Source: Bdellovibrionales bacterium
GTDB lineage: Bacteria; Bdellovibrionota; Bdellovibrionia; Bdellovibrionales; Bdellovibrionaceae
Length of the DNA: 64,000 nt
Direction: 5' to 3'
Assembly: GCA_018266295.1 (NCBI GenBank)
Contig: JAFEAQ010000011.1
Span: 657,626-721,625, forward strand
Made by a program: the position numbers and the translations under genes. This document shows positions 4,472-56,059 of this stretch, one piece after another (position 1 is the first letter of the stretch; the number at the start of each line of letters is the position of its first letter). The notes below the pieces were generated by a model. The model was given only the letters and a program-made list of their open reading frames with translations. It was not told the DNA's origin and did no database searches.

Positions 4472-4510
4472 TTAATTTATAAAATAAGTATATTTAATTT
4501 TATAAATTAA
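4472..4510. promoter_or_regulatory. Perfect 14-bp inverted repeat, candidate operator
   Basis: TTAATTTATAAAAT (4472-4485) and ATTTTATAAATTAA (4497-4510) are exact reverse complements separated by 11 bases. The element lies 31 bases before the TIGR02147 regulator and about 80 bases before the divergent secreted protein gene. The AT-rich arms could include promoter -10 boxes for either gene. A dimeric or tetrameric regulator site is the simplest reading; an autoregulatory site for the adjacent regulator is inference. Confidence 0.55.
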
Positions 4511-4541
4511 TAAAATTAAAACCATTTCGCGAGATGTTTTC

Positions 4542-15574: not shown

Positions 15575-16906
15575 CTACTCCTTCTTCGCTTTCGGCTCAA
15601 GAACGACGATCGATCTTTGATTTTGATTGAGGTATTTATTAGAAACGTCCTTCACCTGCTCTGCAGTGACAGCATTGTACTTATCCAGATCTTTGAAGAG
15701 ATTCTCGTACGAACCCGTCATGATCTCATTCACCGCCAAAGCGCGCGCTTTGCCGTCGATTGTTGTCAAACCATCGACCATTTCTTTCATGACCTGAGTC
15801 TTCGCTTTTGCAAGCTCTTCATCGGTCACAAGCTTATTACGCATTTTCCAGATTTCTTGATACACAAGATCGAGGCTTTCTTGCATTGCTACACCTGGCT
15901 TCAAGTTCACACCCACGGCAAAGACACCTTGGTCTTGCATAGTGGAATCATACGAATAGGCGGATGTCGCCGTTTGCTTTGCATAGACAAGGCGCTTGTA
16001 CAAGCGGCTCGAGCTGCCATTGCCAAGAATGTTCGCGGCAAGATCCAAAGCATACATATCCGGATGCGCATTCGGCACACCACCGAAAGCCACCGTGAAT
16101 GAAATCCCTTGAACGTCTTTTTTCACGCTCGCATTTCTTTGCGTATCTTGAGTCGTCTCGCGCGGATACTCACGGCGAGGCATCGGGCGATAGGCCACAG
16201 GGCCGTAATACTTCTCGATCAATCTCTTTGCTTCAGAAGTTTTAAAGTCACCCGCCAAAACCAAGATCGCGTTGTTCGGCACATAGTAAGTGCTGTGGAA
16301 ATTTCTGAGAGTCTCGATTTTGTAGTCAGAAATATCTTTCATCGTCCCAATCACCGGCCAGCGATAGTTCGAAGTCTTAAACACCGTGCCCATCACTGTT
16401 TCCATCAACAAGCCCATCGGGTTGTTGTCAATACGCCAGCGACGCTCTTCTTTCACGACTTCACGTTCGCTCTGGAGATCATCCGGATTCAGGTTCAGGT
16501 TGCTCATGCGATCAACTTCGATCTGCATCATCATCTCAAGCTTTGAACTTGGCAAAGTCTCATAGAATCCAGTGTAGTCGTAAGTAGTAAACGCATTGTT
16601 AACGATGCCGTTCTCATGCAAGATGCGGTCGAAAGACTTGCCAGGATAGTTCTTTGATCCCTTAAACATCATATGCTCGAGCATGTGAGCAGAGCCCGTA
16701 ATACCCGGAGCCTCGTCACGCGAGCCGACCTTGTACCATGTGTGGTAAGAGATCAGTGGTACCGAATGATCTTCATGCAACAAAACAGTCAGGCCATTTT
16801 GCAGCTTGTACTTCGTCACCGGCAGATTGATTTTCAGATTGTCTTTCTCTTGTGCGTGAGCCAAGGAAAGCATAAAGAAAAGAACAGACCAAACAAGGTG
16901 TTTCAT
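15575..16906 (-). CDS. M16 family zinc metallopeptidase, catalytic subunit
   Basis: I choose ATG 16906, preceded by GGGAG at proper spacing, over a TTG 12 bases upstream. The 443-residue protein has a signal peptide (MKHLVWSVLFFMLSLAHAQ). The inverted zinc motif is HMLEH (H74, E77, H78) with REVVKEERRWRID supplying the distal glutamate. The second-lobe Arg/Tyr segment is also present (RLVYAKQTATSAYSYDSTMQ). It is a periplasmic peptidase paired with the downstream zinc-less lipoprotein. Substrates cannot be told from the sequence. Confidence 0.93.
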   Translation of the reverse strand: MKHLVWSVLFFMLSLAHAQEKDNLKINLPVTKYKLQNGLTVLLHEDHSVPLISYHTWYKVGSRDEAPGITGSAHMLEHMMFKGSKNYPGKSFDRILHENGIVNNAFTTYDYTGFYETLPSSKLEMMMQIEVDRMSNLNLNPDDLQSEREVVKEERRWRIDNNPMGLLMETVMGTVFKTSNYRWPVIGTMKDISDYKIETLRNFHSTYYVPNNAILVLAGDFKTSEAKRLIEKYYGPVAYRPMPRREYPRETTQDTQRNASVKKDVQGISFTVAFGGVPNAHPDMYALDLAANILGNGSSSRLYKRLVYAKQTATSAYSYDSTMQDQGVFAVGVNLKPGVAMQESLDLVYQEIWKMRNKLVTDEELAKAKTQVMKEMVDGLTTIDGKARALAVNEIMTGSYENLFKDLDKYNAVTAEQVKDVSNKYLNQNQRSIVVLEPKAKKE

Positions 16907-18759: not shown

Positions 18760-18806
18760 CCTCCTAGAAAGTGGAACCTTTCCACCGACCTCTAGGAGGT
18801 TTTTTT
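18760..18806 (+). promoter_or_regulatory. Terminator-like hairpin containing the downstream Shine-Dalgarno
   Basis: CCTCCTAGA (18760-18768) pairs with TCTAGGAGG (18791-18799). Inside it GTGGAA (18771-18776) pairs with TTCCAC (18780-18785). Seven T follow and end directly at the ATG (18807). The 3' arm is itself the AGGAGG ribosome site. Promoter-like hexamers TTGAAA (18742-18747) and TAGAAA (18765-18770), 17 bases apart, would start RNA inside the hairpin and leave the SD free. Read-through RNA from the L,D-transpeptidase would instead terminate or hide the SD. The dual role is inference. Confidence 0.6.
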
Positions 18807-19433: not shown

Positions 19434-19462
19434 GTCCCTCATCAACAAAACACGTGAGGGAC
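19434..19462 (+). promoter_or_regulatory. Start-site hairpin carrying the Shine-Dalgarno
   Basis: GTCCCTCA (19434-19441) and TGAGGGAC (19455-19462) pair perfectly around a 13-base loop. The 3' arm contains the only SD-like sequence (GAGGGA) and ends two bases before the ATG. There is no T-run, so it would act on translation only. Weak promoter-like boxes TTCATA (19405-19410) and TAAAAG (19428-19433) end right at the 5' arm. Confidence 0.5.
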
Positions 19463-19464
19463 TT

Positions 19465-20007
19465 ATGAAACTTTTTAATCAAATTTTAGCTCTGACTCTT
19501 GTTACTTTCGCAGGCTTCACTTCTGCTCAAGCCGCTACTCCAGCAAACAATATCGAAACTCTTGTAAAAGCTTTGGCAAAAATCACTGACAGCGGTGTCT
19601 ATACTTACAAATTGCAAAAAGGCACAACGGCTCGTGCATTGATCGAAGAAGCTTACATGAAAGAAAATAAAATCTCTCAACTCGATGAGGATTTTGAATT
19701 CTCTGAGAATGTTGACAGTATTGAATACGCTGACGGTAACGGTTATGGTACTGCGACTGAAACAGCGACTCTCAATGCGATCTACGGTTTGCTGGATGCT
19801 TCTCAGCCAGATCTAAGCAAAGGCGATTACAACCTCATCACTTCACAAGCAGAAACTCTTCTTCAAAAACTTTCGCAAGAAGGCGCCGTATTCGGCTACA
19901 ATGCTGGCGGCTCAGGTGTTTGCGGCGTGAGCTATGCAACGATCTACGTGATCGACGTTAAAACCAAAGTGATCTACGAACTCACTTTCGTTAGCGGTGC
20001 TTGCTAG
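19465..20007 (+). CDS. Small secreted unknown protein
   Basis: 180 residues with signal peptide MKLFNQILALTLVTFAGFTSAQA. The mature protein is acidic in the middle (DEDFEFSENVDSIEYADG) and has two cysteines, in GVCGVSYA and at the final residue (FVSGAC), suggesting one disulfide near the C-terminus. No family recognised. It is preceded by an SD-containing hairpin and followed by a strong terminator, so it is probably a single-gene transcript. Confidence 0.75.
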   Translation: MKLFNQILALTLVTFAGFTSAQAATPANNIETLVKALAKITDSGVYTYKLQKGTTARALIEEAYMKENKISQLDEDFEFSENVDSIEYADGNGYGTATETATLNAIYGLLDASQPDLSKGDYNLITSQAETLLQKLSQEGAVFGYNAGGSGVCGVSYATIYVIDVKTKVIYELTFVSGAC

Positions 20008-53390: not shown

Positions 53391-53507
53391 TCCCATTAAA
53401 AAATACTGCAAAATAAAGATTGCCCTCTGGTTCCAACTTGGGTACTTGTTGTCCACTTTTTATAGGGTCTTTGAGGGGTTTTAATCTTTTTTGAGGGGAA
53501 TCAAAAA

Positions 53508-54494
53508 ATGAAACTACTAGCACGTTCTCGTTCTCTCCTTGTTGTTTCTGCTTTCGCGGCTTTGGCTGTAGGTTGCTCTAACAATACATCTTCTAACGCA
53601 ATCAACACATCAGGCGCTCCTTCAATCATTGGCGGTACCGAAGTTGCTGAAGGCTCTACTCTCCATAAGAGCATCGTTGGTATCTACAACGTAACTGAAC
53701 ACGCTCTTTGCACGGGTTCTTTGCTTGAAAACAACATCGTTTTGACGGCAGCTCATTGCATCGGTGCAAACGCACAAGACCACATCATTATCTTTGCTGC
53801 GGACCTAGAAGCTGTTTTCAAAAGCCAAGATAGAAACTTCGTTCTTTCTAAAGTTCGTCGCGGTGTTAAAACTGTTGTGAACCCTAACTGGGGCAAAAAA
53901 CAAAAAGGTGCTGGCGCTCAAGCATGGGGCGACACTGCTTTGATCAAGTTCCAAGGCGATGTACCAGCTGGTTTCGAGCCTGCAACTCTGTTGGCTGACA
54001 ACAGCGTCTTGACTGAAGGTTCAACAATCACTGTTGCTGGTTACGGCGTGAACAGCGATAAATTGATCGAAATCGACAAAGCGACTTATCCTAACTTCAA
54101 AGAAAAACAAGCGAAGGGCGAAGTTTTCTGTGAGCAGTCTGAAGATGGCAAAACTGAAAAATGCTACGAAGAGCAATTGGATGGTTCTGGTATCTTGAGA
54201 ACAACTGAATTGGTTGTTGCTGGTAACTACAATGATACAGAAATCGCTTTTGACCAACGCAATGGCAAAGCTTCTTGCGAAGGTGACTCTGGCGGTCCTG
54301 CTTACGTAAAAACAAACCAAGGCTACCAGCTCTTCGGTGTTACTAGCCGCGGAACTCGTGGTTGCAACGGTTACGTATTGTACTCTGAAATCACTTCTCC
54401 GAAATTGATGACTTGGTTGGCTCAAGCTAAAGTTGAAGTTTCTCAAGTTCCTGCAGTACAAGATCAAAATACTGTTGCTAAAGCTACCAAGTAG
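53508..54494 (+). CDS. Trypsin-like serine protease, lipoprotein
   Basis: 328 residues. The lipobox LAVGC (C23) predicts an anchored enzyme. The chymotrypsin-fold triad is complete: H83 (LTAAHC), D142 (WGDTALIKF) and S261 (CEGDSGGPAY). SIIGG at 39-43 resembles the activation site, and cysteines support two or three disulfides. It acts outside the inner membrane. Two direct copies of TTTGAGGGG lie in its leader, the second serving as SD. Followed by a terminator-like hairpin before the next gene. Confidence 0.95.
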   Translation: MKLLARSRSLLVVSAFAALAVGCSNNTSSNAINTSGAPSIIGGTEVAEGSTLHKSIVGIYNVTEHALCTGSLLENNIVLTAAHCIGANAQDHIIIFAADLEAVFKSQDRNFVLSKVRRGVKTVVNPNWGKKQKGAGAQAWGDTALIKFQGDVPAGFEPATLLADNSVLTEGSTITVAGYGVNSDKLIEIDKATYPNFKEKQAKGEVFCEQSEDGKTEKCYEEQLDGSGILRTTELVVAGNYNDTEIAFDQRNGKASCEGDSGGPAYVKTNQGYQLFGVTSRGTRGCNGYVLYSEITSPKLMTWLAQAKVEVSQVPAVQDQNTVAKATK

Positions 54495-54524
54495 TTTTTA
54501 GCTTTGATTTAGAAATTGAATTTA

Positions 54525-54568
54525 GCCTCCATTTGCGACTATAGTTGCTACAAATGGAGGCTTTTTTT
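54525..54568 (+). promoter_or_regulatory. Terminator-like hairpin containing the downstream Shine-Dalgarno
   Basis: GCCTCCATTTG (54525-54535) and CAAATGGAGGC (54551-54561) pair perfectly (11 bp) around a 15-base loop. Seven T follow and end directly at ATG 54569. The only SD (GGAGG) is in the 3' arm. TTGAAT (54516-54521), 18 bases, TATAGT (54540-54545) form a candidate promoter whose -10 lies in the loop. RNA from it would lack the 5' arm, while read-through from the protease gene would terminate or mask the SD. Confidence 0.65.
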
Positions 54569-55114
54569 ATGAAACTGACTCAACTACTCGTTGCATCTTT
54601 TGCTCTTCTTTCTCTGGCTGCCTGCAAAACTGTTAAAATCAAAAATGGTGAAGTTCCAAGCCAATATCTTTCTCAAGCTAAAAAACTCGCTGGCACTTAC
54701 AAGGGTGACTTCGAAGGCGTTCCTGGAAATCTGATCGTTGATTTCAACGGTAACAAGCCCACGCTCGCTTACGTTAACAAGCGCGGCGAAGACATCTTGA
54801 ACAACAACTGCCACTCCGAATTCGGCAATATGTTGGATGTGACTATTAAAAATGAAAATAAAAATCCAACAGTGAGCTCGGCGACTTTTGCTTTCGATGC
54901 TGGCGGCTGCTCGTTGATGGTTCGTGGCCGTGATGCTTCTTTGAGCTTCAAACAGACTGACAAAGGCATGCGTATCAACGTTTCAATCTTAAGAGATCTC
55001 ATGCAACGTGAAGTATGCAGTTGGACTCCAGGCAATCCGCCAAACGTTCCGCCGGCACAAGTTTGCCACTGGGAACAAACTCCTGTGTACTTATACGGTA
55101 CTTTCTACCGCTAG
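54569..55114 (+). CDS. Small lipoprotein, unknown
   Basis: The start at 54569 is set by the GGAGG in the hairpin and by the signal peptide MKLTQLLVASFALLSLAAC. 181 residues. Mature domain beta-rich (YKGDFEGVPGNLIVDFNGNK, FDAGGCSLMVRGRDASLSF) with four cysteines after the lipid-bearing one (NNCHSE, GGCSL, VCSWT, VCHWE). No family recognised. It is followed by a strong terminator, so it is probably transcribed alone. Confidence 0.8.
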   Translation: MKLTQLLVASFALLSLAACKTVKIKNGEVPSQYLSQAKKLAGTYKGDFEGVPGNLIVDFNGNKPTLAYVNKRGEDILNNNCHSEFGNMLDVTIKNENKNPTVSSATFAFDAGGCSLMVRGRDASLSFKQTDKGMRINVSILRDLMQREVCSWTPGNPPNVPPAQVCHWEQTPVYLYGTFYR

Positions 55115-55140
55115 TATTGAGAATCAAATCTGAACCACCA

Positions 55141-55172
55141 AAGCGAGACGGGAAACCGCCTCGCTTTTTTTT
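55141..55172 (+). terminator. Intrinsic terminator
   Basis: AAGCGAG-A-CGG, loop GAAA, CCG-C-CTCGCTT, then eight T. It lies 27 bases after the lipoprotein gene. Confidence 0.9.
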
Positions 55173-55180
55173 GGGCCCTA

Positions 55181-56059
55181 TTAGAACTTCCAGTTGATGC
55201 GCTCTTTAGGAAAAGCAATCCAGTCTTCGGTTTTCGGAAAGCCCTTCGGGCGTGATTCCGTCTGGCCTTTGTACTCCAAGAAGGCCGTTATCGCGCAGAT
55301 GAAGGCTTCAAAGGCGTGATTGTTTTCAATCATCAGACGACGATCTTGATCGTAAACGAAAGCGATATTGTGCTCGCCGAGTTCTTTGAGAATTCCACGA
55401 CGGCTGTCTTCTCCGACTGCAGCATGTTTGTGTGAACGCAGGTGCGATTTCAAAACATGCAGTGACAAGCCAATGCGCCAGACCGAGAGCTTCGGATAAA
55501 CTTCAATCGCAGGAACATTCAAGCGGCGTAAAATAAACGAAGCACGCGCCAATAGCGGAGCGGCGTTGGCGCCCATCGCGTTTGACATTTGGAAAGGCTC
55601 TTCCAACTCGGTTGCTAAGTGCAATTCCACCGCACGCTGAGTGTACGGAGTAAAAAGTTTTTTCGGACGTTTCTTTGCGGTGTGCTCTTTATTGTATTCC
55701 CACATCCACTTGATGTGGTCTTCGCCGCAGGCTTCGTAACCTGGGCATTTCAATTTGCAGCTCATGCAATAAGGCACTTTCCACGGCGTATCGACCGCCA
55801 GGGTGTGAATCATGCCATCATATTGCTCGAGGATTTCGTGGATTTTCAGATCAGCAGAAATATTATCTTCGGTACGGATGCGCTCAAAGATTTTAGCAAG
55901 GAAGACCTTATGGTGTTTTGGATAATACTCCAAAATCGCCATGCATGCTTTGTCCGCTTTGCCGCCGCCCAGAGACAGACCGACAAAGCGGATCACATCT
56001 CCTACTGGAGAGGGTTCACGGGACGAGTTGCGAGTACTTGAAACCCGGCTTTTTGGCAT
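55181..56059 (-). CDS. DUF429 family predicted RNase H-fold protein
   Basis: 292 residues. IRFVGLSLGGGKADK, MIHTLAVDTPWKVPYC and KCPGYEACGED match the DUF429 group, thought to be RNase-H-like nucleases. Cysteines CMSCKLKC and EACGE could bind metal. SD AAGGAG lies eight bases before ATG 56059; the start overlaps the GHMP kinase stop by 58 bases. The C-terminal part contains HAFEAFICAITAFLE typical of the family. Activity unproven. Confidence 0.82.
   Translation of the reverse strand: MPKSRVSSTRNSSREPSPVGDVIRFVGLSLGGGKADKACMAILEYYPKHHKVFLAKIFERIRTEDNISADLKIHEILEQYDGMIHTLAVDTPWKVPYCMSCKLKCPGYEACGEDHIKWMWEYNKEHTAKKRPKKLFTPYTQRAVELHLATELEEPFQMSNAMGANAAPLLARASFILRRLNVPAIEVYPKLSVWRIGLSLHVLKSHLRSHKHAAVGEDSRRGILKELGEHNIAFVYDQDRRLMIENNHAFEAFICAITAFLEYKGQTESRPKGFPKTEDWIAFPKERINWKF

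Follow-up and report, generated by a model that had tools for sequence, protein, structure and literature searches.

The window analyzed here, a stretch of 64,000 nt, is part of contig C11 in the 4.22-Mb genome of a Bdellovibrionales bacterium whose family includes Bdellovibrio bacteriovorus HD100. Among the genomes compared, no second representative of its genus was found. Two neighboring genes on its forward strand are of interest. The upstream gene (53508..54494) encodes a protease of the trypsin family (PF00089, Pfam E-value 3.8e-23) with 328 aa and a lipoprotein-like signal. The downstream gene (54569..55114) encodes a lipoprotein of 181 aa, for which a Pfam search gave no match. Homologues of this lipoprotein are present in 27 of the 141 genomes of the order.

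Anatomy of the hairpin

A hairpin followed by a T-tract (54524-54568, forward strand) separates the two genes. The strands GCCTCCATTTG (54525-54535) and CAAATGGAGGC (54551-54561) form a perfect stem of 11 bp, which is extended to 12 bp by the closing pair A54524-T54562. The complete 5' arm, AGCCTCCATTTG (54524..54535), includes CCTCC and is the anti-Shine-Dalgarno strand. The complete 3' arm is CAAATGGAGGCT (54551..54562) and contains the Shine-Dalgarno (SD) sequence GGAGG (54556..54560), 8 nt from the start codon. The T7 tract (54562..54568) serves as terminator U-tract and as spacer between SD and start codon together, and runs directly into the ATG of the lipoprotein gene (54569-54571). Stem, GGAGG and T7 are thus located exactly as in the original prediction. 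The loop CGACTATAGTTGCTA (54536..54550) contains CGAC and GTTG, which are able to pair. In the RNA fold this inner CGAC/GUUG extension shrinks the loop to UAUA. Folding of the hairpin gave a z-score of -4.17, and none of 200 shuffled sequences was equally stable.

The region has the features of an intrinsic terminator. The G+C-rich hairpin with its stem of 11-12 bp is adjoined by a U-tract, and it begins at 54524, only 29 nt past the stop codon of the co-directional trypsin gene (54494). No other perfect hairpin of at least 9 bp is found between the trypsin gene and this hairpin, which is the sole terminator-like structure there. A simple terminator scan missed it because the scan was limited to loops of 8 nt. 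An Rfam covariance-model search of the whole window yielded no match at the gathering score.

Promoter-like elements and accessibility of the SD

A -35-like hexamer, TTGAAT (54516..54521), which matches by consensus only, is followed at a distance of 18 nt by the -10-like hexamer TATAGT (54540..54545) within the loop. The -10 is a consensus match as well, and analogous devices in relatives retain it. Together the hexamers match the consensus at 9 of 12 positions and form the only promoter-like site on either strand in the 2 kb from 53500 to 55500. The motif pair is present as originally described; taken alone it is not significant, since shuffled sequences yield 2.3 such sites against the one found. 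From the position of the -10, transcription is predicted to start at 54551-54553, the first bases of the 3' arm.

In RNA reading through from upstream, the unpaired probability is close to zero at all five bases of GGAGG, and opening them costs 14-18 kcal/mol (14.2-18.0). In RNA from the lipoprotein's predicted own promoter, which lacks the 5' arm (start set at 54552), the cost is 2-5 kcal/mol (1.8-4.7). A weak predicted pairing between the SD of this own transcript and the beginning of its coding region counts against the reading as a fused device. Devices of the NmrA- and ElbB-like families, described below, behave alike, with costs of 0-4.1 kcal/mol in their own leaders compared to 3-19 kcal/mol in read-through RNA.

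Other hairpins in the genome

The hairpin had been regarded as the second of one design. The first device, CCTCCTAGA/TCTAGGAGG followed by T7 and ATG 18807 (18760..18806, forward strand; arms 18760-18768 and 18791-18799), lies 25 nt past a YkuD L,D-transpeptidase gene. It shares the SD-T7-ATG layout, but the loop of its hairpin (18760-18799) has no -10. Here, the hexamer TAGAAT ends directly before the hairpin, and therefore the predicted start would fall within the 5' arm. No orthologues of the gene downstream of this first hairpin were found in the family. A third hairpin that buries an SD, GTCCCTCA/TGAGGGAC (19434-19462, forward strand), is followed by TT and ATG 19465 (feature 19434..19467) and has no U-tract.

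Several further structures were observed. On the minus strand at window position 16906, the hairpin GGGACTCC/GGAGTCCC, with TAAAAT in its loop and no U-tract, stops one base before the ATG of an ORF of 443 codons. Outside the window, at G000:C11:827780, the 12-bp hairpin AACTCCTTTTGC/GCAAAAGGAGTT buries the SD of a gene of 799 codons with a GTG start; its loop holds TATCAT and TAGAAT. Two overlapping palindromes composed entirely of A/T, with arms of 14 and 11 bp, occupy window positions 4472-4520. At least four sites in the genome carry the palindrome CCTCCTGAGCATCGTGCTCAGGAGG (G000:C4:194917, C11:1144512, C14:22485 and C19:203226; L049, L076), and an Rfam search at one of these loci gave no match.

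Excess over chance and orientation of the preceding gene

SD-burying stems were counted in 0.86 Mb of the contig carrying the hairpin and 0.8 Mb of HD100, with genes called mechanically and starts picked by their SD. Perfect stems of at least 8 bp with the 3' arm over the SD were included, and shuffling was confined to the bases ahead of the SD. Starts were classed as co-directional when the preceding gene on the same strand was 30-400 nt away. In the HD100 genome, a c-di-GMP-I riboswitch was additionally seen inside the published merRNA coordinates.

On the own contig there are six such stems behind co-directional genes, with 0.37 expected and a maximum of three among 60 shuffles, and none at divergent starts (0.42 expected). 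HD100 has four co-directional cases (0.52 expected) and one divergent case (0.53 expected). Pooled, this gives 10 co-directional stems against 0.9 (0.89) expected and one divergent stem against 0.95 (Poisson p = 4e-8 for 10 given 0.89; Fisher p = 0.008 for co-directional versus divergent). The excess over shuffled start regions that the original prediction implied is thus present in both genomes, and its argument against chance is borne out by these counts and by the stability of the fold. The excess is real and belongs where a transcript comes in from upstream. That it is restricted to starts with a co-directional gene in front of them suggests a role in termination and insulation and not in the regulation of particular genes. 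Several SD-burying hairpins lack a U-tract and are likewise in excess, so termination is not part of every package. A position of the -10 in the loop is found in 7 of 10 devices by a crude count over all devices (4.2 expected), which demonstrates no general excess. The original claim that a compact terminator-promoter-SD device recurs thus holds for SD-burying stems behind co-directional genes, but the -10 in the loop is not universal.

In 66 genomes of the family, the pattern CCTCC..GGAGG-N-TTTT..ATG has 62 matches compared to 9 for the reversed pattern, orthologues being counted repeatedly. A control with scrambled 5' arm has 19 matches under the same repeated counting, 10 of them inside real devices. 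Raw counts of the pattern across other phyla are not evidence, because plain terminators inflate a scan of all phyla.

The lipoprotein gene in related genomes

Strong SD-burying hairpins are present at three lipoprotein homologues, each behind a different co-directional gene: trypsin in the window, lon in G010 (TTCCCCGGCCT/AGGCCGGGGGG) and another gene in G067. The G067 hairpin, GCCCCCGCTAGTGCCT-ATGATCA-GGGCATTAGTGGAGGC, has TATGAT at the loop. The homologue in G071 has a co-directional neighbor with a separate terminator and no SD-burying hairpin. Among homologues with divergent neighbors no strong SD-burying hairpin was found; some of the neighbor orientations in this comparison derive from mechanical ORFs and are uncertain. 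A TATGAT/TGTGAT element is common to several Bdellovibrio homologues irrespective of whether the hairpin is present.

Devices at other genes

Corresponding devices occur in three other gene families. Their arms vary by species and yet pair, and a -10 is retained within the hairpin or next to it. Upstream of NmrA-like genes, GTAAGT-22/23-TAnnnT is kept in 16 of 21 Bdellovibrio species. Most of these genes have TAnnAT in the loop of a CCTCC..GGAGG-T-run-ATG structure with changed arms, and TAnnnT is retained within the strong hairpins of 14 Bdellovibrio species. The trio that includes HD100 has the same promoter, but with a stand-alone terminator in front of it and with an ordinary SD. The GTAAGT element of the Bdellovibrio sequences (L227-L245), at 22-23 nt from the conserved TAnnnT, is too distant for an ordinary -35 and is probably the half-site of a regulator.

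For ElbB-like genes, TTGCC[A/T]-17-TAnnnT is kept in 22 of 24 sequences. The hairpin is kept as well and exists in two forms. The long form has the -10 inside. In the short form the -10 lies just before the hairpin, which would place the start in the 5' arm. The SD is covered in either form. The hairpin shifts between orthologues relative to the conserved promoter and still covers the SD. In HD100, the ElbB-like gene (545543-546193) is on the minus strand, and a further candidate device is located at 2062031, at a nitronate-monooxygenase-like gene.

In the third gene family, 19 genomes (L319-L337) from a distant family of the phylum retain the device at a carboxyl-transferase gene. It mostly lies 23-44 nt past the preceding stop codon and has TAnnnT in the loop. 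The preceding gene ends in ..SRASLIMKVDKY.LDKRKKAA, and AACGCA is found upstream in many of the 19 genomes. Seventeen of these devices were aligned with one further device of that family (alignment A3). In A3, 94.8% of the cells pair, compared to 42-64% in slid controls. Double-sided changes number 18 versus 5.0 in shuffles (0 of 500 reached this number), and G-U pairs are frequent. This covariation argues for pairing at the level of RNA. It comes from gene families of relatives and not from the 54524 locus itself. A comparison of own with cross pairing gave 0.98 versus 0.60, a figure biased by the choice of helices, which were selected for pairing; the count from A3 is fairer. The proposal that architecture rather than sequence is conserved is therefore upheld in the relatives, where stems change with compensation and SD, T-run and -10 stay.

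Proposed function

Most likely (at a probability of roughly 70%), the site at 54524 is a terminator, an SD-hiding insulator and an internal promoter fused in one hairpin. RNA polymerase leaving the trypsin gene would make the hairpin and U7 and stop there, as at an intrinsic terminator. In any RNA that reads through, GGAGG would be locked in the stem, so that the lipoprotein would not be translated from the message of its neighbor. The lipoprotein gene would have a promoter of its own, whose -10 lies in the loop, and a start at ~54551-54553, past the 5' arm. Because its transcription would begin after the 5' arm, the own mRNA would be unable to form the hairpin, and the SD in its leader of ~17 nt would be free. 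With the SD buried in read-through RNA and free in the own mRNA, the lipoprotein would be translated only from its own promoter. Since the layout recurs in relatives, a coincidence seems less likely than a genuine device for insulation.

A more economical explanation is a plain intrinsic terminator whose GGAGG 3' arm doubles as SD because the genes are close, in an economical genome, with no promoter in the loop and no function in hiding the SD. The shape GCCTCC..GGAGGCTTTTT is indeed a common one for terminators. It has 83 matches in a scan of genome contigs across all phyla, most of them at ordinary gene ends, and only 19 of the 83 lead into an ORF of at least 60 aa from that ATG. The confinement of the excess to starts behind co-directional genes fits this explanation as well. 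However, SD-burying hairpins without a U-tract are also in excess, and orthologous hairpins still cover the SD although their position with respect to a conserved promoter shifts. Furthermore, unless transcription started inside the hairpin, the SD of the downstream gene would always be buried. A plain terminator is thus considered unlikely.

Alternatively, the two genes could be co-transcribed and the hairpin opened by a protein, an RNA, a ligand or temperature, which would switch the lipoprotein on. SD-sequestering hairpins are a standard form of regulation, and ANTAR-type elements near or over ribosome-binding sites (RBSs) are known (PMC3369931). Such a regulated attenuator is nevertheless very improbable: there is no Rfam match in the window, and apart from the -10 nothing conserved is seen that resembles an alternative pairing, an aptamer or a motif in the loop. 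The downstream genes (lipoprotein, NmrA, ElbB, carboxyl transferase) are unrelated, and the hairpin tracks the orientation of the neighbor, not the gene. Even less credible is a DNA palindrome that is bound by a regulator over the promoter and has no role in RNA. The palindrome does surround a promoter-like -10, but stems differ freely from locus to locus and among orthologues. Such compensated variation, with its many G-U pairs, is in keeping with an RNA and not with a fixed site for a protein.

Comparison with known systems

The proposed fused device is closest in operation to the arrangement at I-TevI, segB and mobE of T-even phages. There, a hairpin buries the RBS in RNA from upstream promoters, and a promoter immediately upstream gives a transcript too short for the hairpin, which frees the RBS (PMC2988022). 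Likewise, the RBS of the 54524 device is paired in read-through RNA and freer in the predicted shorter transcript. An internal promoter with its start past the 5' arm may be present: TTGAAT-18-TATAGT is in place and the -10 is conserved in relatives. The phage genes encode homing endonucleases under temporal control, and no role of their hairpin in terminating the gene before it is described. The 54524 device, in contrast, has U7 right after the stop of the preceding gene, is found in bacterial chromosomes and recurs at unrelated genes. As the downstream gene is chromosomal and encodes a lipoprotein without a Pfam match and not a homing endonuclease, the device works like the I-TevI type and is not a member of it.

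At the E. coli frd terminator/ampC attenuator and the B. pseudomallei nlpD1 terminator/penA attenuator, too, read-through is controlled by the terminator of the upstream gene, which is placed within the 5' region of the gene that follows (PMC6045580). In these systems the promoter precedes the terminator, and the gene's own transcripts must pass it; at penA, 25 nt separate the end of the terminator from the start codon (PMC6045580). In the 54524 device, transcription is predicted to start within the hairpin, and the stem includes the SD.

Protection against outside transcription at the level of translation is a likeness to IS10 and IS200. In these mobile elements, hairpins hide the SD of the transposase in read-through RNA and the own promoter lies inside. 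The terminator and the SD-hiding hairpin of IS200 are separate. No bacterial precedent for the full composite was found in the literature searched, which is weak evidence, most subscription journals lying outside its scope. As plain terminators of the shape GCCTCC..GGAGGCTTTTT are common across many phyla, the raw material is cheap and convergence is expected.

Possibly, though at slightly less than even odds, Bdellovibrionota repeatedly build fused terminator-promoter-SD hairpins between co-directional genes as a general insulator at two levels. These would be gained and lost with the orientation of the neighbor and conserved for long at some loci, for example at the carboxyl-transferase gene of the distant family. 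If so, a trick of phages and transposons would be used by ordinary bacterial genes, fused with termination in ~50 bases. There would be a clear rule to call such boundaries, and closely spaced co-directional neighbors need not be operons. The device would also be a compact part to insulate genes in synthetic constructs. Attack-phase and growth-phase genes are strictly separated in Bdellovibrio, and leak-proof boundaries would suit this separation.
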